The position numbers and the translations under genes are program-made. From an uncultured Burkholderiales bacterium (GTDB lineage: Bacteria; Pseudomonadota; Gammaproteobacteria; Burkholderiales; Burkholderiaceae_C), in the NCBI GenBank assembly GCA_903933115.1, contig CAIZIT010000092.1:1-64000 (forward strand): a stretch of 64,000 nucleotides of DNA, read 5' to 3'. Below the pieces are notes generated by a model. That model saw only the letters and a program-made list of their open reading frames with translations. It ran no database searches and was not told where the DNA came from. Shown in pieces: positions 9,042-25,518 of this stretch. Each line of letters starts with the position of its first letter. The first letter of the stretch is position 1.

Positions 9042-9271
9042 GGGCAATGGAGGTGTCGTGAAGGTTTCATGAGAAGAAACATTAAAGCATATTTATTAGA
9101 CGATCAAAGTCATTAAAAACCAGAATTCTAGAGCTTGGATATGATACATAATGATTGAACTTTTATACGCTCAGACCCAGAGCTTTTTTTAATGTCTTGA
9201 TGATCAATAGACGTTTAAGAACGTTTCGCACACGGGTTTGGTGCATTCATAGCTAAAGGGTGGGATTCAGC

Positions 9272-9622
9272 ATGCAAGCGCTTGATTTAGAGAGGATTGA
9301 GGATTTTGGGTTTTCCAAAGAGCAGTTGCTTGAGTTGATGGGCAATTATCAGACCAGCATCCTCAATGACTTTGAGCCGCTTTTTGCGCTTTGTTCAGAA
9401 GGCAACACGGTCGAGCTTTTATCGAAGCTCCATGCCTTCAAAGGCATGCTGAGTCTTTTCGCAAAACCTTTCATCGTGGAGCTTGTCGCACACATTGAAA
9501 AAAATTTACACGCTCAACCCTTGAACTCCATCAAAGACACCTATGAGCGCTTGCATCATTTGCACATTCAAGTTCAAATGCTTCATTCAGAAGTGGACGT
9601 TCACTTGAAGACCCTTCAGTGA
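9272..9622 (+). CDS. Hpt-domain-like protein
   Basis: This 116-aa, all-helical protein contains LHAFKGMLSLFA, which resembles the phosphorylatable-histidine motif (HxxKG) of histidine phosphotransfer domains. The histidine would sit near residue 52. Such proteins relay phosphate between sensor kinases and response regulators; no kinase or regulator gene is adjacent. AGGGTGGG precedes the ATG. It lies tail to tail with the alpha-E gene, 6 bp apart. The assignment rests on one motif and length. Confidence 0.65.
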   Translation: MQALDLERIEDFGFSKEQLLELMGNYQTSILNDFEPLFALCSEGNTVELLSKLHAFKGMLSLFAKPFIVELVAHIEKNLHAQPLNSIKDTYERLHHLHIQVQMLHSEVDVHLKTLQ

Positions 9623-9628
9623 TGCCTT

Positions 9629-10588
9629 TTAAGCGGGCACCTCGTCCGTCGACAAAAGGAAGTCATGGCTGATGCCAAAACCCACCAAATTGATTTTTTC
9701 TAAAAACAGTTTCAAATAATTGTGTAAGCCCATCTCCAACACATCCTCTATGCTCTCGTCTCTGAGTTCGGCCAAGATGTTGCGAATTTGGGTCAGTGTT
9801 GTGCTCGATTGGGCGTTCTTGACCATGCCGAGCAAGTTGGCCACTTCTGCGACACACGCCACCAACGACCTGGGCATGTCCGTCCTCAAAATCAGCAATT
9901 CTGCGACCCTTTCTGGTGTGATCACGTCTCGGTAAGCTTTGCGGTAAATTTCAAAGGCTGAGACGGATCGCAAAATGGCCGCCCAATAATAAAAATCATC
10001 CACCGAGTCGTGGTTGAAAACTTTCATGTTCTCTGCGGTCAGCGATTTCACATCCAATAGCCTTGCGGTGTTGTCCGCTCTTTCTAAAAAGGAGCCCAAG
10101 CAGATGAATGAGTATGCCTCATCTCGCATCATGGTGCCATGCTGAACGCCACGTGTTTGATGTGAGCGAAACTTCACCCACTCAAAAAACTCGGATGGGG
10201 CGTAATTCAAGAGTCCATCTTTGATTTTATTTTGCGCTTCAAGCCATGTCGTGTTGATGGTCTCCCAAAGCTCAGTGGTCATCGAGCCTCTCACTGCACG
10301 AGCGTTCTCCCTGGCCGCCTCTAGGCATCTCATGATCGAGGAAGGATTGTTCAAATCACTCACCATGAATTCGATCACAGCCTTGGCGCTGATCGTGTCA
10401 TGGGTTTGATCAAAGAGTGAGGTGAGTTCGGAGATCTCCAGCAAGGCTCTCCAAGCCATCTCCGAGACCTCAACGGTCTGGGGCAGCAAAGACATCTGGT
10501 AATTGACATCCAGCATTCGTGCTGTATTTTCTGTTCGCTCTGTGTAGCGAGACATCCAGTAAAGATGATCGGCTGTTCTTGATAGCAT
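9629..10588 (-). CDS. Alpha-E domain protein (stand-alone)
   Basis: This 319-aa protein of the alpha-E (DUF403) superfamily is helical and begins MLSRTADHLYWMSRYTERTE, the signature start of the family. Its biochemical role is unknown. The family occurs almost always beside or fused to circularly permuted ATP-grasp proteins, here the gene 24 bp upstream, and a fused copy lies at 16135-18687. A role as partner in a peptide-bond-forming enzyme has been proposed from gene neighbourhoods, without experimental proof known to me. It is probably the second gene of an operon started from the sigma-54 promoter near 12372-12385. Confidence 0.88.
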   Translation of the reverse strand: MLSRTADHLYWMSRYTERTENTARMLDVNYQMSLLPQTVEVSEMAWRALLEISELTSLFDQTHDTISAKAVIEFMVSDLNNPSSIMRCLEAARENARAVRGSMTTELWETINTTWLEAQNKIKDGLLNYAPSEFFEWVKFRSHQTRGVQHGTMMRDEAYSFICLGSFLERADNTARLLDVKSLTAENMKVFNHDSVDDFYYWAAILRSVSAFEIYRKAYRDVITPERVAELLILRTDMPRSLVACVAEVANLLGMVKNAQSSTTLTQIRNILAELRDESIEDVLEMGLHNYLKLFLEKINLVGFGISHDFLLSTDEVPA

Positions 10589-10612
10589 TTCTGAAGTCCT
10601 CGAATCTGTCTC

Positions 10613-12073
10613 TTAGTGTTCTAGTATCCACGTGTCTTTGGTGCCGCCACCTTGCGAGGAATTCACGACCAAGGAGCCTTCCTTCAAAGCCACTCGGGTC
10701 AGGCCACCGGGGGCCATGCGGACCTCTTTACCCGATAAGACAAAGGGTCTGAGGTCGATGTGTCTGGGCGCAATGCCAGAGTCCACATACGTTGGGCAAG
10801 TGCTCAGTGCCAGTGTAGGCTGGGCGATGTAGCCGCTGGGGTTTGCTTTGACTTTTTCCTTGAACTCGGCCACTTCGCTTTGGGTCGATGCAGGGCCCAC
10901 CAGCATGCCGTAGCCTCCTGCACCGTGCACTTCTTTGACGACCAAGGAGGCCATGTTGTCGAGCACATACTGAAGCTCATCGGGTTTCCTACACATGTAG
11001 GTGGGGACATTGGAGATGATCGGCTCCTCACTCAAATAAAATTTGATCATCTCTGGCACATAGGGGTAGATGGATTTGTCATCGGCAACACCCGTTCCCA
11101 CGGCATTGCAAATGGCAACGTTGCCTGCCTTGTATGCCCTCATCAAGCCTGTTGCACCTAGCGCGGAGTCCGCTCTGAAAACCTCAGGATCAAGGAAATC
11201 ATCATCCACACGTCTGTAGATCACATCCACCTTTTTGAGGCCTTGGGTGGTTCTCATGTAGAGGTAATCGTCTTTGACCACGAGATCTTTGCCCTCGACC
11301 AACTCGACGCCCATTTGTTGGGCAAGAAAGGCATGTTCAAAGTAAGCAGAGTTGTACATGCCAGGGGTGAGCACCACAACTGTGGGGTTGGTGTTGGCGT
11401 TGGGTGCTGATTGTCTGAGTGTTTCAAGCAGCAAATCCGGATAATGAGCAACGGGCTCCACGCGGTGTTTGGCAAAAAGCTCAGGGAACAACCGCATCAT
11501 CATTTTGCGGTTTTCAAGCATATAAGAAACCCCTGAAGGCACTCTCAAATTGTCCTCAAGAACGAAGAACTCTCCAGTTTGTTGATCGTGATTGGCTCTG
11601 ACGATATCAATACCAGCGATATGGGCGTAGGTCTTCATGGGGACATCCACACCAACCATCTCGGGTCTGAACTGCGCATTGTTGAGCACTTGCTCTGTGG
11701 GGATGATGCCCGCCTTCAAGATGTGCTGCTCGTGGTAGACATCGTGCAAAAACATGTTCAAGGCCGCAACGCGCTGAATCAACCCCTTTTCAAGCTTTTG
11801 CCACTCTAGGGCCGTGAAAATCCTTGGAACAATATCAAAGGGGATGGTTCTCTCTGTGCCCCCAACGTCACCATAAACGGCAAAAGTGATTCCCACGCGG
11901 CGAAACATCAAGTCAGCCTCTTCTCTTTTGCCCTTCAAGACGTCTTCGCCTTGCGTGTTGAGCCATTGAGCAAAAGATTTGTAATGCTCTCTGGATAAAT
12001 TTGGATTTTTAAAATTTCTATCCAAATCATCCAAAATCATTTCATCAAAGGGCAATTGAAAATTCGTTACCAT
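10613..12073 (-). CDS. Circularly permuted ATP-grasp protein (stand-alone)
   Basis: This 486-aa protein of the circularly permuted ATP-grasp type 2 family (DUF404/DUF407) has the expected landmarks: LEDNLRVPSGVSYMLENR, LTPGMYNSAYFEHAFLA, RRVDDDFLDP, NAVGTGVADDK, the glycine-rich nucleotide loop KEVHGAGGYGMLVG, HIDLRPFV and a C-terminal SSQGGGTKDTW. ATP-grasp enzymes join a carboxylate to an amine using ATP, so a peptide- or amide-ligase activity is likely but the substrate is unknown. It forms an operon with the alpha-E gene. This copy keeps the ATP-binding residues that look altered in the fused paralogue at 16135. Confidence 0.9.
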   Translation of the reverse strand: MVTNFQLPFDEMILDDLDRNFKNPNLSREHYKSFAQWLNTQGEDVLKGKREEADLMFRRVGITFAVYGDVGGTERTIPFDIVPRIFTALEWQKLEKGLIQRVAALNMFLHDVYHEQHILKAGIIPTEQVLNNAQFRPEMVGVDVPMKTYAHIAGIDIVRANHDQQTGEFFVLEDNLRVPSGVSYMLENRKMMMRLFPELFAKHRVEPVAHYPDLLLETLRQSAPNANTNPTVVVLTPGMYNSAYFEHAFLAQQMGVELVEGKDLVVKDDYLYMRTTQGLKKVDVIYRRVDDDFLDPEVFRADSALGATGLMRAYKAGNVAICNAVGTGVADDKSIYPYVPEMIKFYLSEEPIISNVPTYMCRKPDELQYVLDNMASLVVKEVHGAGGYGMLVGPASTQSEVAEFKEKVKANPSGYIAQPTLALSTCPTYVDSGIAPRHIDLRPFVLSGKEVRMAPGGLTRVALKEGSLVVNSSQGGGTKDTWILEH

Positions 12074-12360
12074 GTAAGAGAGTCCTTCTTGTCATTGCTC
12101 CTTGGATGGTGATGGAGCTCTGAAGGTTGAGAGGGTTGACGCAAAAGAGCACCCTTGTGTTGGGCGGTCCATTTTGCAAAATGCTTGAAACACAATCCGC
12201 TTGTCAGGCCATTCAATGCGCCGCTCAATCGATCAATGAACACTTCTTTGAAGTTTAAATTTTGCAGGTACGTGAAAAACTGAACCAGCGCACCCGATAT
12301 CACACCCGATGGCATACAGCAATGGACCGTCACAAAATTGAATTCATTGGGATTGATCAT
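12067..12360 (-). CDS. Possible small leader ORF, 97 codons
   Basis: This open frame starts with ATG (MINPNEFNFVTV) exactly where the predicted sigma-54 transcript would begin and ends overlapping the ATP-grasp start. The sequence resembles nothing I recognise, and its basic, His/Ser/Lys-rich end is not typical of a conserved protein. It may simply be the 290-nt leader of the operon. It is listed only because of its position. Confidence 0.15.
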   Translation of the reverse strand: MINPNEFNFVTVHCCMPSGVISGALVQFFTYLQNLNFKEVFIDRLSGALNGLTSGLCFKHFAKWTAQHKGALLRQPSQPSELHHHPRSNDKKDSLTW

Positions 12361-12370
12361 GAGCTGTTTA

Positions 12371-12386
12371 AGCAATATCGGTGCCA
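12371..12386 (-). promoter_or_regulatory. Sigma-54 promoter for ATP-grasp/alpha-E operon
   Basis: On the minus strand TGGCACCGATATTGCT matches the consensus TGGCAC-N5-TTGCT with exact GG-N10-GC spacing. It shares the 12-mer CGATATTGCTTA with the sigma-54 candidate at 57093-57106. The predicted transcript start is about 12360. Confidence 0.75.
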
Positions 12387-12570
12387 TTTGATTGTTATTT
12401 CATTGTCTTTTCATTGCTCTTTCAATGGATTGCAAAAGATGCCGGCCTTGTTCAATCGGATTTTTACTTGTCCCGGTTTGATCAACCGTTGTTTTCAAAG
12501 AAAGCGGACCCAGTTCGCTATTTGTTGAAGCCCCTTTTTGGGTGGGATCGAGTTCATTGCATCATGTGGC

Positions 12571-12587
12571 CGCACCGATGTGGTGCA
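12571..12587 (+). promoter_or_regulatory. NtrC-like binding site between divergent operons
   Basis: CGCACCGATGTGGTGCA differs from the NtrC palindrome TGCACC-N5-GGTGCA at one base. It lies 48 bp before the plus-strand sigma-54 -24 box and about 185 bp from the minus-strand one, so it could serve both. Confidence 0.7.
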
Positions 12588-12632
12588 AATTAAGCCTTGC
12601 TGGGATCAAAACGTGAAAACCACAAGTGAGAT

Positions 12633-12649
12633 TTGGCATATTAGTTGCA
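12633..12649 (+). promoter_or_regulatory. Sigma-54 promoter for transglutaminase/ATP-grasp operon
   Basis: TTGGCATATTAGTTGCA has GG (12635-12636) and GC (12647-12648) 10 bp apart and near-consensus boxes. The predicted start falls on the A of the downstream ATG at 12660, which would make a leaderless message. Confidence 0.7.
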
Positions 12650-12659
12650 TTGACTGATC

Positions 12660-15600
12660 ATGACCATACAAGTTGCCCTCCATCACAGTTCCATTTACAC
12701 CTACGATCGTGCGATCAACTTGGGGCCACATATCGTTCGGTTGCGCCCGGCTGCGCACTGCAAGACGCCGATTTTGTCGTACTCATTGAGAGTAGAGCCT
12801 GAGAGCCATTTTCTCAACTGGCAACAAGATCCGTTTGCCAATTATTTAGCCCGATTGGTTTTCCCTGAAAAAACCAGAAAATTCAAGGTCACAGTGGATT
12901 TGGTCGCTGAAATGGCGGTTTACAACCCCTTTGACTTCTTTTTAGAGCCCGACGCAGAGACCTTCCCCTTCAAATACGAAAAGCGCTTGGGCCATGACTT
13001 GGCCCCTTATTTGGCCACCTCCAAGCCGGGGCCGATGTTGAAGTCCTTGATTGCTGCAGTGCCTGAAAAACGTGTACGCACCATTGATTACTTGGTCTTC
13101 ATCAATCAGCTCATTCACGCCAGAGTCGATTACACCATCCGTTTGGAGCCTGGCGTGCAGTCCCCTGAGGAAACCTTGCAACTGGGCTCTGGGTCTTGCA
13201 GAGACTCGGCCTGGTTGATGGTTCATTTGCTCAGGCACAAAGGGTTGGCCGCCAGGTTTGTCTCCGGCTACTTGATTCAATTGAAGCCGGATGTGAAGTC
13301 CTTGGACGGTCCCTCTGGGGCTGAATCGGATTTCACCGACTTGCATGCGTGGTGTGAGGTCTTTTTACCCGGTGCAGGCTGGGTGGGCCTTGATCCGACT
13401 TCGGGTCTACTTGCTGGGGAGGGGCACATTCCTGTGGCCTGTACCCCGGAGCCTGCTGGCGCTTCGCCCATTTTTGGTGCACTGGACAAGTGTGAGGTGG
13501 AGTTTTCGCACCAAATGAGTGTGTCTAGGGTTTACGAGTCTCCAAGAATCACCAAGCCCTACACGCCTGAGCAGTGGCAAGACATCGTTCATTTGGGCGA
13601 AACTGTGGATACCGAGATGGCGCAAATGGATGTGCGCCTGACCATGGGTGGTGAGCCCACATTCGTCTCGGTGAGTGACCGGGATGGGGCTGAGTGGAAT
13701 ACGGATGCTTTGGGGCCCACTAAAAGAGGCTATTCGACCCAATTGATTCAACGGCTCAAAGATCAATACGGTGAAGGCGGATTTTTACATTTTGGGCAAG
13801 GCAAATGGTATCCAGGTGAGCAGTTGCCTCGCTGGGCGTTGTCCCTTTATTGGCGCACCGATGGCGAGCCTTGTTGGAGCAACAAGCGGCTTTTTGCCAA
13901 TGAGCGCGATGAACACCGATTCCAAACTCCGGATGCCAAGCGTTTCATTGAACACTTGAGTGCTCGATTGGGACTGGGTACGCAGTACATCACACCGGGC
14001 TACGAAGATGCTTGGTACTACATGTGGCGTGAGCGCAAATTGCCCTTGAATGTCAATGTGTTCGATTCCAAAATTGATGATGAACTTGAGCGCTCAAGGA
14101 TCAGAAGAATTTTCAACCAAGGTGTCAATGAGGTCGTGGGGTATGTCCTTCCCATCAAAAAAGCCGATCATGCCGCTCAGTTGGGCGCTTGGCAGACCGG
14201 GCCTTGGTTCTTTCGCGAAGAGAAGATGTTCTTGATTCCTGGTGACTCTGCGATGGGTTACCGTCTGCCTTTGGATTCTTTGCCTTGGGTGAGTGAGTCG
14301 GAGTTTCCCTATCAGATCGATGTGGATCCTTACGACCAGTCTCTTCCTTTGAGGGCTCATCAGGCGCTCAAAAGGTCCACGTCATTGGTCATGCAAACGC
14401 CTTATTTCAAGTCTGCCTTGGGTTTTGATGATCTCTCAGGCAGCGAGGGAGAGGGCGAAGGCGAGGGCGGCTTACTGGACCCACAATCCCAACGGATCCC
14501 TCAAGCTCAAGAGTCAGCGCATTGGTTGACCCGCACGGCCCTTTGTGTGGAGGTGAGAAATCCTGGTCGTGCCAGTGGACCTCAAGCGGAGTTGTTGAGC
14601 CAAGACAAGGGCGTTGTTTATGTGTTCATGCCTCCACTGGTGAGACTCGATGACTATTTGGAGTTGGTCGCTCAAGTCGAGGCCACCGCCCATGAATTGC
14701 AAATGCCTGTGGTGATGGAGGGCTATCCTCCTCCTCGGGATGCCAGACTCAAAATGCTGCAAGTCACGCCGGATCCTGGCGTGATAGAGGTCAACATCCA
14801 TCCGGCTCACTCCTGGCCTGAATTGGTGGACAACACCCAATTTTTGTACCAAGTGGCTCACGAGACGGGTTTGTCCACTGAGAAATTCATGATGGATGGG
14901 CGCCACACGGGAACCGGTGGTGGCAACCACTTTGTGATGGGCGGTGCCACACCAGCGGACAGTCCCTTTTTAAGAAGAAGTGATTTGCTGCCCAGTCTTT
15001 TGACCTTTTGGCACAATCATCCATCGTTGTCTTACCTGTTTTCGGGCCTCTTCATTGGCCCCACCTCACAGGCGCCTCGAGTGGATGAGGCGAGAAACGA
15101 TCAGGTGTATGAATTGGAAATTGCCCTTGCAGAAATCGAGAGGCAAACCAAACTTTGGGGTCAGTGTCCGCCTTGGGTGATTGACCGTGCACTTCGTAAC
15201 CTCTTGATCGATGTCTCGGGCAACACCCATCGCTCTGAGTTTTGCATCGACAAGCTTTACTCACCCGACGGTCCAACGGGACGCTTGGGGCTCCTCGAGT
15301 TGCGTGCTTTTGAGATGCCGCCTCACTCTCAAATGAGTTTGGCTCAGCAGTTGTTGATTCGCGCCATGGTGGCTTGGTTTTGGAAAACACCCTACAAAGG
15401 CCATGGTGTGCATCGCCTCAATCGCTGGGGCACGGAGTTGCATGATCGGTTCTTATTGCCAACCTTTGTCAAAATGGATTTTGAGGATGTTTTGGCTGAA
15501 CTGAACGCTGCAGGCTTTGAATTCAAATCGGAGTGGTTTGATCCACATTTTGAGTTCAGGTTCCCCATGATTGGCGCGGTTCAAACCAAGGGAATTGAGC

Positions 15601-16106
15601 TCACCCTCAGGACCGCTTTAGAGCCCTGGCACGTCATGGGTGAGGAGGGCTCTGCTGGCGGAACTGTTCGCTATGTGGACTCCTCACTAGAGCGTCTCGA
15701 ATTGAAGCTCTCCGGCTACAACGACAACCGCTTCAGCGTCACGGTCAATGGTCAATCCGCCCCTTTGCAACCCACGGGAGTGGTGGGTGAGTATGTCTTG
15801 GGTGTGAGGTACAAAGCATGGGCGCCTCCATCGGCTTTACACCCCAGCATTGGCATGCACGCACCTTTGAGCTTTGATATTGTGGACAACTCTCTCTCGA
15901 GATCTCTTGGTGGATGCCGTTACCATGTCACGCATCCTGGGGGGAGAAATTACGACTCATTGCCCATCAATTCCTATGAGGCAGAGAGTCGACGCTTGGC
16001 CAGATTCACCAAACTTGGGCATACACCAGGAAAAATCAATGTTCAAAGGGCTTATCCGAGCCAAGAGTTGCCTTTCACGCTCGATTTGCGAAGAAACCTA
16101 GGATAA
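12660..16106 (+). CDS. Transglutaminase-like protein with C-terminal DUF2126 domain
   Basis: This 1148-aa protein has two parts. The first ~300 residues form a bacterial transglutaminase-like N-terminal region plus a papain-like core with a full catalytic triad: Cys180 in GSGSCRDSAW, His229 in DLHAW and Asp245 in GLDPTSG. The remainder is the DUF2126 region (for example LTMGGEPTFVSV, PGDSAMGYRLPL and GRHTGTGGGNHFVMGG). These enzymes are thought to be peptidases or transamidases, and DUF2126 has a carboxylate-amine-ligase flavour but is uncharacterised. It is the first of three tightly packed genes and follows a sigma-54 promoter and NtrC-like site. No ribosome binding site is visible, consistent with a leaderless start. 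Homologues begin with similar residues (MxIxVALHH), which supports this start. Confidence 0.9.
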   Translation: MTIQVALHHSSIYTYDRAINLGPHIVRLRPAAHCKTPILSYSLRVEPESHFLNWQQDPFANYLARLVFPEKTRKFKVTVDLVAEMAVYNPFDFFLEPDAETFPFKYEKRLGHDLAPYLATSKPGPMLKSLIAAVPEKRVRTIDYLVFINQLIHARVDYTIRLEPGVQSPEETLQLGSGSCRDSAWLMVHLLRHKGLAARFVSGYLIQLKPDVKSLDGPSGAESDFTDLHAWCEVFLPGAGWVGLDPTSGLLAGEGHIPVACTPEPAGASPIFGALDKCEVEFSHQMSVSRVYESPRITKPYTPEQWQDIVHLGETVDTEMAQMDVRLTMGGEPTFVSVSDRDGAEWNTDALGPTKRGYSTQLIQRLKDQYGEGGFLHFGQGKWYPGEQLPRWALSLYWRTDGEPCWSNKRLFANERDEHRFQTPDAKRFIEHLSARLGLGTQYITPGYEDAWYYMWRERKLPLNVNVFDSKIDDELERSRIRRIFNQGVNEVVGYVLPIKKADHAAQLGAWQTGPWFFREEKMFLIPGDSAMGYRLPLDSLPWVSESEFPYQIDVDPYDQSLPLRAHQALKRSTSLVMQTPYFKSALGFDDLSGSEGEGEGEGGLLDPQSQRIPQAQESAHWLTRTALCVEVRNPGRASGPQAELLSQDKGVVYVFMPPLVRLDDYLELVAQVEATAHELQMPVVMEGYPPPRDARLKMLQVTPDPGVIEVNIHPAHSWPELVDNTQFLYQVAHETGLSTEKFMMDGRHTGTGGGNHFVMGGATPADSPFLRRSDLLPSLLTFWHNHPSLSYLFSGLFIGPTSQAPRVDEARNDQVYELEIALAEIERQTKLWGQCPPWVIDRALRNLLIDVSGNTHRSEFCIDKLYSPDGPTGRLGLLELRAFEMPPHSQMSLAQQLLIRAMVAWFWKTPYKGHGVHRLNRWGTELHDRFLLPTFVKMDFEDVLAELNAAGFEFKSEWFDPHFEFRFPMIGAVQTKGIELTLRTALEPWHVMGEEGSAGGTVRYVDSSLERLELKLSGYNDNRFSVTVNGQSAPLQPTGVVGEYVLGVRYKAWAPPSALHPSIGMHAPLSFDIVDNSLSRSLGGCRYHVTHPGGRNYDSLPINSYEAESRRLARFTKLGHTPGKINVQRAYPSQELPFTLDLRRNLG

Positions 16107-16134
16107 TCTGGTTTTCCGAAATGAAAGTACAGCT

Positions 16135-18687
16135 TTGAGTGAGTCAGTTGGTTCGTTTTCTAAACCCGTTAACAAGGACGCATCCTTCACCACCGAGGCG
16201 TTGCGTGAGTTGATTGCGGCCCTGTCTGTCAAGAACCAGACCGAGCAGCACAACGAGTTCACAGATAAAAATGGCGAGCTCAAGCAAAATTGGATTGATT
16301 TCTTCAAAATTCTTGGCCCACAACAAATCAAGAAGTTGACGGAGAGCGCCTCCACGGTTGCTCGCTTTATTCAACAAAACGGGATCAGCTACAACGTCTA
16401 CGACGCCGACCAAGGTCAAAGCAGACCTTGGTCTTTGAATCCATTGCCGTTATTGATTGCGCAAGACGAGTGGGCGCAAATCTCCAAAGGACTCTCCCAA
16501 CGCGCCAAGTTGCTCAACGAAATCTTGAAAGACATCTACGGGCAGCAAAGCTTGCTGCAAGAGAGTTTTTTGCCCGCTGCTTTGGTTCAAGGGCACCCGG
16601 GTTATTTGCGTGCGCTCGATCAAATCAGACCTCCTGGAGACATCTTTCTCCATATCGTCGCCTTTGACATTGCTAGAGGGCCCGAGGGCAAATGGTGGGT
16701 GATTGGTAACAGAACGCAAGCGCCTTCAGGTTTGGGGTATGTGCTGGAGAACCGTTTGATCATCTCCAAGTTGTTTCCTGAGGCGTTTCGGCAGTTGCGT
16801 ATTCAACACATTGCTTCGAGCTACAGGCGCTTATTGGACACCTTCACAGAGTTGGCCAAACCCATTGCCAACGGAGAAGCGCCTCGATTTGCGTTGCTCA
16901 CACCGGGTCCCTACAACGAGACTTATTTTGAACACGCCTACCTCGCGCGCTACTTGGGCCTTTCCTTGGTGGAAGGCGCCGATTTAACCGTGCGCGATCA
17001 AAAGTTGTATCTCAAAACGCTTCAAGGTCTCAAACCCATTCATGGACTCTTTAGACGCCTAGATGATGAGTTTTTAGATCCCTTGGAATTGAAGGCAGAT
17101 TCGACCTTGGGGGTGCCTGGACTCTTGCAAGTTGTTCGAGCAGGCAACGTATTGATCGCCAATGCGTTGGGGACTGGATTTTTGGAGTCTCCAGCCGTTC
17201 AAGGTTTTTTGCCCGCTATTTCAGAAAAGCTCTTGGGTGAGAAGTTGTTGATGCCCTCACTACACACTTGGTGGTGTGGTGAGCAAGCGGCTTTGATGGA
17301 TGTGAGTCCCCGGTTGGCAACACAAGTGATCAAGCCCACCTTCATCGGAAGCGTGGGTCCTCACTTTCAGCCCATCATTGGAGAGCAAATGGATGCTGAG
17401 CAGCTCGATTTGCTCAGAGAGAGAATTGCCCTCAGACCCGAGATTTACACCGCACAAAGTTACTTGAAATTCTCACAAGCCATGACATGGCAAAACAATG
17501 AGTTCACGCCAAAAACGGCCATGCTCAGAATTTATGCAATGGCCAACATCGATGGCACTTGGGAGATTTTGCCTGGTGGGATGACGCGCATTTCAAGCGA
17601 CGACAAAGACATGGTCTCCATCCAAAGGGGCGGGAGCACACTCGATACTTGGGTGAGCACGGGAGAGGAGGTCGATACCTACTCCATGTTGCCCCAAAGG
17701 GTAAAAAGAAGCGACAGCTTACCCTCGGAGAGCGGTTTCTTGGTCTCCAGTCGCATCGCAGAGAATCTCTTTTGGCTGGGTCGTTATACAGAGCGCACAG
17801 AGTCCTTGACCCGACTGGCCAAGGAGTCTTTGATGGTTGCGAGCATCTCGGGTGAGGACAATGTGCTCACTTTGCAAGATGCAATCAGTGAGCTCACCAT
17901 TCGCTCAGGTTTGATTTCGGCCGATGCACCCACACTGAGCCAATCCCCTAAAGTGTTTACCCGAACCTTGATTGCCAGTTTGATTTCCAAGAAAGCAACG
18001 AGTGTTGGCTTTTATTTGAACGCCATCGAGAGCAACTTGAAACTGGTGCGGGATCGCTTGCCCAGCGATCACTCACGCTTGGCCAGCACGATGAGAGCCA
18101 CCTTAGAGGCACGTCTCGGTGAGCAAAGATCGGTGGAGGAGAAGTCCTTGATTGTGGCCGTTGAGGCGCTTGATAATTTGGGGCTTCAATTGGCGGCGTT
18201 GACTGGACTGCAGTCCGACCGAATGACACGGGACTTGGGTTGGAGGATGCTTACCATTGGTCGTTTGATCGAGAGGCTCGTGAATTTGGCGGAAACTTTG
18301 AGCACATTTTTTCTCAATAAAGGTGCGCTCTCCAGTAGAGGCTTTGAGATGCTCATCGCTCTTTTTGACAGCACCATCACCTACCGAACCCGATATCAAA
18401 GTTACCAAGACATTGACTCGCTCATTGAGCTATTGATCTTGGATGACACCAACCCAAGGGCGATCATTTGGATACTGAAAGAGCTCGAGCAAGAGATTCA
18501 ATTCTTACCAAGTTCGGGCCAAGAAATTGACATCTACATTCAACTCATCAAGAGTTGCATGCCGATTGAAGGCGCCTTTGAGGTGGTCTCATTTAGCAAA
18601 CGCGTTGCTCAAGCGGGAAAAATTCTCTCCGATGAGTTGAGTGGCAGATACTTTGCCCACATCAAAGAGCAAAGGTTTGCATCATGA
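16135..18687 (+). CDS. Circularly permuted ATP-grasp / alpha-E fusion protein
   Basis: This 850-aa fusion has an N-terminal circularly permuted ATP-grasp region (about residues 1-510, with APSGLGYVLENR, LTPGPYNETYFEHAYLA, RRLDDEFLDP, GGSTLDTW) joined to a C-terminal alpha-E domain that starts near SSRIAENLFWLGRYTERTE. It is the single-chain counterpart of the two separate genes at 9629-12073. The glycine-rich ATP loop of the stand-alone copy (HGAGGYG) is replaced here by FIGSVGPHF and the DLRPF segment by MLRIY, so nucleotide binding may be altered or lost. A TTG start at 16135 is the only plausible upstream start, with a weak GAAAG box. It overlaps the next gene by ATGA. Confidence 0.88.
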   Translation: MSESVGSFSKPVNKDASFTTEALRELIAALSVKNQTEQHNEFTDKNGELKQNWIDFFKILGPQQIKKLTESASTVARFIQQNGISYNVYDADQGQSRPWSLNPLPLLIAQDEWAQISKGLSQRAKLLNEILKDIYGQQSLLQESFLPAALVQGHPGYLRALDQIRPPGDIFLHIVAFDIARGPEGKWWVIGNRTQAPSGLGYVLENRLIISKLFPEAFRQLRIQHIASSYRRLLDTFTELAKPIANGEAPRFALLTPGPYNETYFEHAYLARYLGLSLVEGADLTVRDQKLYLKTLQGLKPIHGLFRRLDDEFLDPLELKADSTLGVPGLLQVVRAGNVLIANALGTGFLESPAVQGFLPAISEKLLGEKLLMPSLHTWWCGEQAALMDVSPRLATQVIKPTFIGSVGPHFQPIIGEQMDAEQLDLLRERIALRPEIYTAQSYLKFSQAMTWQNNEFTPKTAMLRIYAMANIDGTWEILPGGMTRISSDDKDMVSIQRGGSTLDTWVSTGEEVDTYSMLPQRVKRSDSLPSESGFLVSSRIAENLFWLGRYTERTESLTRLAKESLMVASISGEDNVLTLQDAISELTIRSGLISADAPTLSQSPKVFTRTLIASLISKKATSVGFYLNAIESNLKLVRDRLPSDHSRLASTMRATLEARLGEQRSVEEKSLIVAVEALDNLGLQLAALTGLQSDRMTRDLGWRMLTIGRLIERLVNLAETLSTFFLNKGALSSRGFEMLIALFDSTITYRTRYQSYQDIDSLIELLILDDTNPRAIIWILKELEQEIQFLPSSGQEIDIYIQLIKSCMPIEGAFEVVSFSKRVAQAGKILSDELSGRYFAHIKEQRFAS

Positions 18688-19583
18688 AGTTCATCCGTGT
18701 TGAGCATGAGACCAAATGCACCTACGACAGCGAAGTTCAACTGGCGCATCACTTGGCTTATCTCAGGCCTTTGAGCAATGCATTCCAAGAGGTCTTGGAC
18801 ACGAGTTTGGTGATCTCTCCTACGCCTGATTCGCACTACGAGAATGTGGACTCATTCGGTAACAAAAGAGATTTCTTCTCTTTCCAAAGTGCGCATGAGT
18901 ACTTGACCGTCACCGCATGTTGTCAAGTGTTGACCCATGAGCTACCCCGAGAGAGCGTGGATGCTGTGAGTTTGACTTGGGAGCAGGTGAGGGACTCTTT
19001 GAGGTATGCCTCTGGCATGAAATATGTGCCCGCTTGTGAGTTCGTGTTTCCAAGCGCTTATGCCCCCTATGTTGCAAAAATCAAAAGTTACGCTCTGGAG
19101 TCTTTCACCCCAGGTCGAAAGATCACGCAAGCGGCCATTGAGTTGACGCAGCGCATCTTCAAGGACTTTAAATACTCACCCAAATCCACCGAGGTGAACA
19201 CGCCCGTTTGGGAGGCTTTTGATCAGCGCCTGGGGGTGTGCCAAGACTTCTCCCACATCATGCTCGTGGCGTTCAGAAGTTTGGGTCTCAGCGCAAAATA
19301 CATGAGTGGCTACTTGCTCACCCGTCAGCCAGTGGGGCAAAAGAAATTGCGCGGCGCCGATGCCTCCCATGCTTGGGTGGCCTTGTATTGTCCCGGTATC
19401 CCTGGTGACTGGCTTGAATTGGATCCCACCAACAACATGATTGCCGACGAAAGCCATGTCAGGTTGAGCTCGGGCAGAGACTTTGGAGATGTCTCGCCCT
19501 TAAGAGGCGTCATTCGCGGAGGCGGCGAGCACGAGTTGGAGGTGGCGGTGACTGCCGAGGAATTTGGAGAAGAGGCGAGCTGA
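18684..19583 (+). CDS. Transglutaminase-like cysteine peptidase family protein
   Basis: This 299-aa protein has the transglutaminase-like fold: a beta-rich N-terminal region and a papain-like core with Cys186 (GVCQDFSH), His229 (DASHAWVAL) and Asp247 (ELDPTNN). It probably cleaves or rearranges peptide or isopeptide bonds in the cytoplasm, since no signal peptide is seen. Its start codon overlaps the stop of the ATP-grasp/alpha-E fusion (ATGA), which indicates translational coupling. It closes the operon and converges on ureG 20 bp further on. Confidence 0.9.
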   Translation: MKFIRVEHETKCTYDSEVQLAHHLAYLRPLSNAFQEVLDTSLVISPTPDSHYENVDSFGNKRDFFSFQSAHEYLTVTACCQVLTHELPRESVDAVSLTWEQVRDSLRYASGMKYVPACEFVFPSAYAPYVAKIKSYALESFTPGRKITQAAIELTQRIFKDFKYSPKSTEVNTPVWEAFDQRLGVCQDFSHIMLVAFRSLGLSAKYMSGYLLTRQPVGQKKLRGADASHAWVALYCPGIPGDWLELDPTNNMIADESHVRLSSGRDFGDVSPLRGVIRGGGEHELEVAVTAEEFGEEAS

Positions 19584-24069: not shown

Positions 24070-24086
24070 TGCATCATTTTGGTGCA
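24070..24086 (+). promoter_or_regulatory. NtrC-like binding site between ureA and urtA
   Basis: TGCATCATTTTGGTGCA matches the NtrC palindrome TGCACC-N5-GGTGCA with one difference. It sits 71 bp from the urtA -24 box and 59 bp from the ureA -24 box. Confidence 0.7.
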
Positions 24087-24156: not shown

Positions 24157-24172
24157 TGGCACGCGGCTTGCG
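24157..24172 (+). promoter_or_regulatory. Sigma-54 promoter for urtABCDE
   Basis: TGGCACGCGGCTTGCG is an almost perfect -24/-12 promoter (TGGCACG-N4-TTGC) with exact spacing. The predicted start is near 24183, about 60 bp before the urtA ATG. Confidence 0.85.
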
Positions 24173-24243: not shown

Positions 24244-25518
24244 ATGTTCAATAGACGTCATCATCTCAAGGCTTTGGCTGCTGCAACAGCCTTGGTCTCA
24301 GGTTCATTGTTAATGGCTTTGCCTGCACGCGCTGCAGACACGATCAAAGTGGGTGTTTTGCACAGCTTGTCAGGCACCATGGCGATTTCTGAGACGGTTC
24401 TCAAAGACACCGTATTAATGGCCATTGATGAGATCAATGCCAAGGGTGGTGTGTTGGGTAAAAAGTTGGAGCCCGTTGTGGTCGATCCAGCTTCCAATTG
24501 GCCTTTGTTTGCTGAGAAGACCAAGCAATTGTTGACGCAAGACAAAGTCTCTGTCATCTTTGGATGCTGGACTTCAGTTTCTAGAAAGTCTGTTCTCCCA
24601 GTGGTTGAGGAATTGAACGGTTTGTTGTTCTACCCCGTGCAGTACGAGGGTGAAGAGCTCAGCAAGAACGTGTTCTACACAGGTGCTGCTCCCAACCAAC
24701 AGGCCATTCCTGCTGTTGATTATTTGATGAGCAAAGACGGTGGTGCGGCCAAGCGTTGGGTTTTGTTGGGCACTGACTATGTTTACCCCCGTACAACCAA
24801 TAAAATTTTGCGTGCCTACTTGATCAGCAAAGGTGTCAAAGAGTCTGACATCGATGAGAAGTACACACCATTTGGCCACTCCGATTATCAAACCATTGTG
24901 GCTGATATCAAGAAATTTGCCACAGGTGGCAAGACCGCAGTGGTCTCCACCATCAATGGTGACTCCAATGTACCTTTCTACAAAGAGTTGGGCAACGCTG
25001 GCTTGAAAGCCAAGGACGTTCCAGTGGTTGCGTTCTCTGTGGGTGAGGAAGAGTTGCGCGGTGTCGACACCAAGCCTTTGGTCGGTCACTTGGCTGCATG
25101 GAACTATTTCATGAGCATCAAGAACCCCACCAATGATGCATTCATCAAAAAGTGGAGTGATTACGCCAAAGCCAAAGGCATCGCAGGTCACAAGGACAAG
25201 CCTTTGACCAACGATCCCATGGAGGCAACTTACATTGGTATCAACATGTGGAAACAAGCTGTTGAAAAAGCCAAGAGCACTGATGTTGATAAAGTCATTG
25301 CAGCAATGGCTGGACAAACATTCACGGCACCTAGTGGCATCAAGTCCATGATGGATGAGAAAAACCACCATTTGCACAAGTCCGTGTTCATCGGTGAAGT
25401 CAAGGCCGATGGTCAGTTCAATGTGGTTTGGAAAACACCAGGTCCAGTCAAGGCCAAGCCATGGAGTCCTTACATCGAAGGCAACGACAAGAAGCCTGAT
25501 GAGCCAGTGAAGAAGTAA
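24244..25518 (+). CDS. urtA: Urea ABC transporter substrate-binding protein UrtA
   Basis: This 424-aa periplasmic binding protein has a signal peptide ending PARAA-DTIKVGVLHSLSG. The family features are FGCWTSVSRKSVLPVVEE, LLFYPVQYEGEE and LGTDYVYPRTTN, which distinguish UrtA from branched-chain amino acid binders. It captures urea for UrtBCDE. It is the first gene of the operon, downstream of a strong sigma-54 promoter. A long hairpin separates it from urtB, which may let urtA accumulate more than the membrane parts. Confidence 0.95.
   Translation: MFNRRHHLKALAAATALVSGSLLMALPARAADTIKVGVLHSLSGTMAISETVLKDTVLMAIDEINAKGGVLGKKLEPVVVDPASNWPLFAEKTKQLLTQDKVSVIFGCWTSVSRKSVLPVVEELNGLLFYPVQYEGEELSKNVFYTGAAPNQQAIPAVDYLMSKDGGAAKRWVLLGTDYVYPRTTNKILRAYLISKGVKESDIDEKYTPFGHSDYQTIVADIKKFATGGKTAVVSTINGDSNVPFYKELGNAGLKAKDVPVVAFSVGEEELRGVDTKPLVGHLAAWNYFMSIKNPTNDAFIKKWSDYAKAKGIAGHKDKPLTNDPMEATYIGINMWKQAVEKAKSTDVDKVIAAMAGQTFTAPSGIKSMMDEKNHHLHKSVFIGEVKADGQFNVVWKTPGPVKAKPWSPYIEGNDKKPDEPVKK

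Follow-up and report, generated by a model that had tools for sequence, protein, structure and literature searches.

A 64,000-nucleotide stretch from an uncultured Burkholderiales bacterium (contig CAIZIT010000092.1, positions 1 to 64,000; hereafter the window) carries a cluster of ATP-grasp, Alpha-E and transglutaminase-like genes whose two divergent arms are, in our judgement, likely to form a nitrogen-starvation-induced amide-bond system with a shared NtrC site, a leaderless plus promoter and a coupled small open reading frame (ORF). The minus arm encodes a stand-alone ATP-grasp protein and then Alpha-E, and the plus arm a transglutaminase-DUF2126 protein, an ATP-grasp-Alpha-E fusion and a second transglutaminase (Table 1). 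In the proposed mechanism, phosphorylated NtrC on one shared palindrome would drive two divergent sigma-54 promoters, and nitrogen starvation would induce a system of the known ATP-grasp/Alpha-E/transglutaminase kind that forms amide bonds. Transcription from the plus promoter would begin at the DUF2126 ATG or within about 4 nt of it, so that the mRNA would have neither a leader nor a Shine-Dalgarno sequence, and the minus promoter would do likewise, in the clade of the window, for a small ORF inserted ahead of the ATP-grasp gene. The balance tips, in our view, towards sigma-54 promoters that are hard-wired to leaderless translation in this genus: starvation-induced leaderless messages would be the only source of the DUF2126 ligase and, within one clade, of the small protein, whereas the sister gene, ATP-grasp, has a normal Shine-Dalgarno leader in the rest of the genus.

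Transcription from sigma-54 promoters starts 12 nt past the C of the GC in the -12 element. That C lies at 12648 and 12372 in the two sites of the locus, and at the standard spacing transcription would begin at 12660 and 12360, both of which are the A of an ATG; from this we infer the start sites and leaderless translation. All 45 readable genomes of the genus have a sigma-54 site 26–30 nt before the DUF2126 ATG, and the mRNA is therefore predicted to be leaderless. A first set gave 25/25 loci, the window included and loci without the N-terminus dropped, and a later set gave 19/19 (15 genomes new; one of 20, with its N-terminus cut, dropped); combined, the site lies at -26 to -30 in 44/44 distinct genomes, and one further locus at a contig edge has it at -27. 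The chance of finding a site at these five offsets is approximately 0.002 per locus. The gap between site and ATG is 10–14 nt in all 44 loci, which hold 43 distinct spacers with a mean identity of 33%, compared with 78% for the site, so it is the distance that is conserved and not the sequence. The start codon is ATG in every one of these loci, whereas 29 of the 100 loci sampled beyond the genus start with GTG or TTG, and 35 of the 44 have an in-frame stop within four codons upstream of the ATG. Shine-Dalgarno matches of at least 4 nt precede 3/36 genus starts but 29/56 family starts (Fisher p 1.3e-5). By its sequence marks (an ATG, no Shine-Dalgarno sequence and a predicted start close by) DUF2126 is a candidate leaderless gene, save in the three starts with a 4-nt match.

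The same evidence bears on whether DUF2126 is instead transcribed from a sigma-70 promoter farther upstream with a normal leader, the near sigma-54 site being coincidental or repressor-like. Room for this is left by the start sites in the locus being predictions and by the ability of sigma-54 to bind without transcription. However, the fixed gap across scrambled spacers, the exclusive use of ATG (0/44 GTG or TTG) and the 33 of 36 genus starts without a Shine-Dalgarno match make such an arrangement very improbable.

The predicted leaderlessness is not general to sigma-54 genes in these bacteria, given that the ATP-grasp ATG lies 39–45 nt from its site in 12 genus loci outside the small-ORF clade, 11 of them with AGGAG in between. 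At 13 other strict sites in the host genome the implied leaders are 23–356 nt long; at one more strict site (L043) an ATG stands at +29, though inside a longer frame running across the site. In the sample of 100 loci from beyond the genus, 53 leaders are implied, of 2, 2, 3 and 4 nt and then of at least 17 nt (49 loci), with none of 5–16 nt. Two observations blur this separation and speak against the leaderless interpretation: implied leaders of 5 and 15 nt are seen in two named Verrucomicrobiota, and two named Pseudomonas carry weak sites at -20 or -31 in addition to those at -53/-54. Spacing of the leaderless kind also turns up in other genera of the family (28–30 nt in L125, L135, L140 and L169) and, at -28, in two named loci (L279, Caenimonas soli, and L306), a scatter hinting at independent gains.

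Leaderless mRNAs that, like those predicted here, start at the start codon have been described in Sinorhizobium meliloti, Bradyrhizobium japonicum and Caulobacter, all with AUG in S. meliloti (PMC3616915, PMC4842269 and PMC4117421, each consulted in part). Those of B. japonicum have an extended -10 type motif upstream according to the accessible text (PMC4842269), whereas the locus has a sigma-54 site. The leading matches of a literature search, which covered few subscription papers, held no description of a conserved leaderless sigma-54 gene, and the genus-wide leaderless sigma-54 spacing, predicted from sequence, is new.

Table 1 Features of the cluster and of the neighbouring urea genes, with positions in the window
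Feature	Position	Strand	Details
Alpha-E, stand-alone	9629-10588	-	319 aa; Pfam PF04168, E 1.8e-93
CP_ATPgrasp, stand-alone, circularly permuted	10613-12073	-	486 aa; CP_ATPgrasp_2, E 6.8e-167
Small ORF	12067-12360	-	97 codons; starts at predicted sigma-54 start; unannotated before
Sigma-54 promoter TGGCACCGATATTGCT	12386-12371	-	0 mismatches to TGGCAC-N5-TTGCW; predicted start 12360
NtrC-like palindrome CGCACCGATGTGGTGCA	12571-12587		11/12 positions
Sigma-54 promoter TGGCATATTAGTTGCA	12634-12649	+	1 mismatch; predicted start 12660, A of ATG
Bact_transglu_N + Transglut_core + DUF2126	12660-16106	+	1148 aa; Pfam
CP_ATPgrasp + Alpha-E fusion	16135-18687	+	850 aa; Pfam
Bact_transglu_N + Transglut_core, second transglutaminase-like	18684-19583	+	299 aa; Pfam
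NtrC-like palindrome TGCATCATTTTGGTGCA	24070-24086	+	11/12 positions
Sigma-54-like site TGGCACGCGGCTTGCG	24157-24172	+	

The initial annotation had placed five genes with these domains at these positions, 586 bp between the divergent start codons (12074-12659), a near-perfect NtrC palindrome and two sigma-54 sites in the locus. The ORF list and Pfam bear all of this out, except that the plus-strand site, given as 12633-12649, spans 12634-12649; the annotation had overlooked that both predicted starts fall on an ATG and that a small ORF occupies the minus leader. In both sigma-54 sites GG and GC stand ten bases apart, and both belong to the 20 matches of the strict pattern TGGCAYN5TTGCW in the whole genome, compared with 2 for the reversed pattern. 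The ten genes after other strict sites include three with flagellar domains and one encoding a glutamine-amidotransferase class II protein, as expected of a sigma-54 regulon; some strict sites are located within longer reading frames and may be chance matches. Motif statistics from the window itself gave no support, so relatives were compared, and the motifs of the locus are convincing owing to their conservation there and not to their frequency in the window.

We compared upstream DNA from 120 relatives, a subset of the matching genomes, and the window, counting a sigma-54 site where at least 9 of 12 positions matched, with GG and GC exact, within 200 nt upstream of the DUF2126 gene; loci without the DUF2126 N-terminus were left out. 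Such a site is present in 20/20 same-genus, 42/60 same-family and 11/40 order loci, at a chance rate of approximately 0.08 per 185-position upstream stretch, and the GG-N10-GC conservation that the initial annotation had named as a check is seen in all 20 of these genus loci. In many loci where DUF2126 lacks a site, the ATP-grasp and Alpha-E genes sit in front of it on the same strand. The stand-alone ATP-grasp gene is preceded by a site in 14/14 genus, 40/41 family and 9/12 order loci, counted where 300 nt or more lay upstream, up to 450 nt of which was scanned (chance approximately 18% per locus); the counts leave out nine loci with less than 300 nt upstream, seven of which had the site, and loci whose ATP-grasp start fell outside the fetched DNA. 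Among named loci with 200 nt upstream, 50/79 have a site before DUF2126; in 11/11 Pseudomonas it lies 53–54 nt before the gene.

The palindrome of the locus has the TGCACC-N5-GGTGCA-like form of the NtrC regulon, and its centre is 81 nt away from the predicted start of the plus promoter and 219 nt away from that of the minus promoter. Palindromes matching at least 10 of 12 positions in the 350 nt upstream number 16 in the 21 genus loci, where 0.81 are expected, and occur in 14 of these loci; elsewhere they are weakly enriched (family 8 versus 2.5 expected, order 4 versus 0.9). The host genome encodes RpoN, as well as an NtrC that scores above its curated cut-off. Within the window, TGCATCATTTTGGTGCA and TGGCACGCGGCTTGCG precede an ORF at 24244-25518 (+) with a normal leader, which we take to be urtA, encoding a urea-binding protein. 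Because this urtA-like gene bears its own NtrC-like and sigma-54-like sites, the neighbouring urea cluster is probably under the same nitrogen control.

Experimental evidence comes from Burkholderia cenocepacia H111, in which the counterpart genes I35_5080-83 change by -8.2, -9.4, -9.4 and -6.0 fold in an ntrC mutant relative to wild type under nitrogen limitation and are listed among the common sigma-54 and NtrC targets (PMC5491218, accessible text). Like the locus, this cluster (BCAM1233-1236) comprises a CP-ATP-grasp (DUF404/407), an Alpha-E (DUF403) and two transglutaminase-like proteins, one of them large, which from its name we take to be of the DUF2126 type; unlike the two divergent arms here, its four genes form one numbered run, and the accessible part of PMC5491218 describes neither a leaderless start nor a small ORF. 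The NtrC/sigma-54 control proposed in the initial annotation is thus well supported, by conservation here and by experiment on the betaproteobacterial counterpart (PMC5491218, in part), with NtrC the presumed activator in this organism. It is not a new prediction for such clusters, given that NtrC dependence has been measured in B. cenocepacia.

In the 64-kb window itself, neither the NtrC motif with up to two mismatches (6 versus 4.5 expected) nor the sigma-54 motif with up to one (6 versus 5.0) is significantly over-represented. Several findings weigh against such control. Only 11 of 40 loci in the order sample have a site before DUF2126, partly because the operon begins with ATP-grasp in many of them, and three of three Marinobacter loci lack one, with the ATP-grasp gene outside the fetched DNA. 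The palindrome is also less constant than the sigma-54 sites: conservation of NtrC sites among relatives, the other check named at the outset, holds for most genus loci but for only 6/60 loci from other genera of the family and 4/40 in the order. Moreover, the palindrome (CGCACC-N5-GGCGCA) of many genus members directly adjoins the -24 element, where an enhancer would not usually be expected, instead of lying approximately 90 nt off; in L214-L219, L225, L227 and others it spans about -51 to -35 from the DUF2126 ATG. Its absence or weakness in several relatives would fit a sigma-54 activator other than NtrC at these promoters, and the host genome encodes at least three more proteins that match the NtrC model in its central region, below the cut-off. 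We regard a different activator as improbable in view of the NtrC dependence of the Burkholderia counterpart (PMC5491218, accessible text), the excess of palindromes upstream in the genus and the same motif pair before the urtA-like gene.

The small ORF begins at the predicted start of the minus promoter, and its stop overlaps the ATP-grasp ATG (ATGGTAA). A 106-codon minus-strand reading was dropped, as it begins upstream of the promoter, in favour of the 97-codon ORF starting at 12360. Homologues with E 1e-9 or better are found in 5/84 genus genomes, the window included. In all five, counting from the sigma-54 site, the ATG stands at +26/+27, and the ORF ends across the ATP-grasp ATG; the lengths are 89–97 codons, with the pattern MxNPxxxNxxT...PSxxxSGxLxQ...QNxN and, near residues 14–32, a moderately hydrophobic stretch. 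Three weaker matches (E 0.002–0.003) were discarded: two carry a stop and lie on contigs other than that of their genome's DUF2126 gene, and the third covers residues 41–90 only and comes from a genome in which DUF2126 has no match at E 1e-40. Pfam, NCBIfam and PADLOC gave no match to the ORF. Across codons 1–41, dN/dS is 0.16–0.37 in all ten pairs, and on this measure of the sequences the ORF is under purifying selection. The ORF is probably translationally coupled to ATP-grasp, and a small ORF in this position is new.

The confinement of the small ORF to 5 of 84 genus genomes and the poor conservation of its C-terminal half count against a protein-coding role. Both would suit a leader RNA that controls ATP-grasp and is not a gene, with a fast-diverging 3' half whose last codons fall on the ribosome-binding region of ATP-grasp. 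The low dN/dS in ten of ten pairs, and the open frame with its ATG at the predicted start and its stop across the next ATG in five of five, render this rather unlikely, although a translated small ORF may still work mainly in cis through coupling.

As for the enzymes, the stand-alone ATP-grasp protein matches PDB 3n6x (E 2e-209, residues 8–485 of 486), and its E173, N175, R177, D440 and G386/G387/G389 are invariant in 52/52 stand-alone homologues, which predicts an active ligase. Aligned with these 52, the 97 ATP-grasp domains of fusion proteins keep the E173, N175, R177 and D440 columns in none, and the three glycines of the loop in 12, 22 and 6. By analogy with glutathionylspermidine synthetase we take the E, N and D columns to be metal ligands; since these presumed metal-binding columns are absent in 97/97, the fusion domain is probably a pseudoenzyme, inactive as a ligase, and this conserved, predicted pseudo-ligase is new. 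It is somewhat unlikely that the fusion is an active enzyme using another metal site or acyl acceptor: the fusion family is widely retained and, of the 159 near-invariant grasp columns, 70 are each conserved in 80% or more of the fusions, but the E, N, R and D columns are uniformly missing and the glycine loop is mostly gone. The AlphaFold model of the stand-alone Alpha-E protein is all-helical (pLDDT 92); it has no PDB sequence match and no fold match (best Foldseek E 0.58).

Both transglutaminase-like proteins retain what we take, from the fold, to be the Cys-His-Asp triad, and by their sequences they belong to that family. C180, H229 and D245 are invariant in 46 sequences of the transglutaminase-DUF2126 type; in the second transglutaminase, which matches PDB 3isr (E 8.6e-12), C186 and H229 are each kept in 93/93 and D247 in 91/93, with another residue in two. 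The model of the DUF2126 protein also resembles 3isr (Foldseek E 1e-14). Its DUF2126 part is a putative amidoligase of the glutamine-synthetase fold, in agreement with the Pfam name; against this, the model (pLDDT 76) matches enzymes of that fold only weakly (E 0.03–0.2; 9qur E 0.03, 5dm3 E 0.04). In the proposed scheme, the active ATP-grasp ligase and the glutamine-synthetase-fold amidoligase would make amide or isopeptide conjugates, the inactive ATP-grasp-Alpha-E fusion would act as a scaffold or regulator, and the two transglutaminase-fold enzymes would transfer or cut the conjugates, serving nitrogen economy. We give about an even chance to the locus making and processing amide or isopeptide conjugates, the chemistry being deduced from the enzyme families, and put little trust in any one specific product.

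The clustering of ATP-grasp, Alpha-E and transglutaminase families, which marks a known kind of system, is confirmed at the locus. Iyer and colleagues are said to have proposed in 2009 that such a set synthesises or modifies peptides, and their systems share the gene set of the locus; to our knowledge that work does not deal with regulation, a pseudo-ligase or a leaderless start. These amidoligase systems are cited in PMC5666114 and PMC6376114 (accessible text). The Anbu operons of Pseudomonas putida and Yersinia bercovieri likewise contain a CP-ATP-grasp, an Alpha-E and a transglutaminase, and in P. putida the operon (PP_2685-2688) is induced by nitrogen limitation, attributed to NtrB/NtrC (PMC7801951, citing Hervas et al., and PMC8050072, both seen in part). 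With the same enzyme kinds under the same nitrogen control, the locus might be a protein-tagging and degradation pathway of the type proposed for the Anbu operon, and not a small-molecule or reserve system. However, the Anbu operon includes the Ntn-hydrolase Anbu, whereas PF00227, the proteasome fold of Anbu and HslV, has 0 matches in the host genome, which is 99% complete; the locus is thus not an Anbu operon. The accessible Anbu operon descriptions also lack the DUF2126 fusion and the ATP-grasp-Alpha-E fusion. A tag that works without the Anbu peptidase is conceivable, and we treat tagging as a tentative alternative, short of an even chance, to the amide-bond system favoured here.

Marine metagenome statistics tie DUF403/404/407 and Bact_transglu_N to urea-metabolism domains (PMC3597751, accessible text). 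Among their leading matches, literature searches on these gene names gave no functional work beyond expression, and a search on Actinobacterial GlnR control gave nothing relevant. NCBIfam offered no names for the locus proteins searched, and PADLOC had 0 matches for six locus proteins, which thus do not resemble an anti-phage defence system.

The host genome comprises 2.8 Mb in 119 contigs, and its closest named relative among those returned is a Comamonadaceae metagenome-assembled genome (L260) at 85% identity. The DUF2126-type protein, by which the set can be recognised, is widespread: at E 1e-60 it is encoded in 96 of 150 sampled family genomes, two of these matches covering only the first ~310 residues, and in 51 of 150 order genomes. 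The initial annotation had suggested that the system might make, mobilise or recycle a nitrogen-rich peptide or amide, perhaps a reserve compound, and had read the nearby urease genes as a clue to this. Urease genes adjoin the cluster in only 3 of 21 genus loci, those of the window and the two closest fetched relatives (up to 12.5 kb examined), and we reject the clue as not conserved. A long gene between the arms in several relatives, presumably ComEC-like from its N-terminus, was set aside as not a component of the system. A 120-aa ORF at 9260-9622 (+), without a Pfam or NCBIfam match, adjoins Alpha-E, and L212 has a copy of 42% identity in the same position.

The tight, conserved sigma-54 control places the gene set in the nitrogen-starvation response and shows when to look for its activity, and two of its parts, the small ORF and the predicted pseudo-ligase, lend themselves to specific tests. 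If the leaderless starts are real, the output of one NtrC site would be divided between two translation modes. A sigma-54 gene that is leaderless throughout a genus would also be a clean natural system in which to ask whether starved cells prefer leaderless messages.

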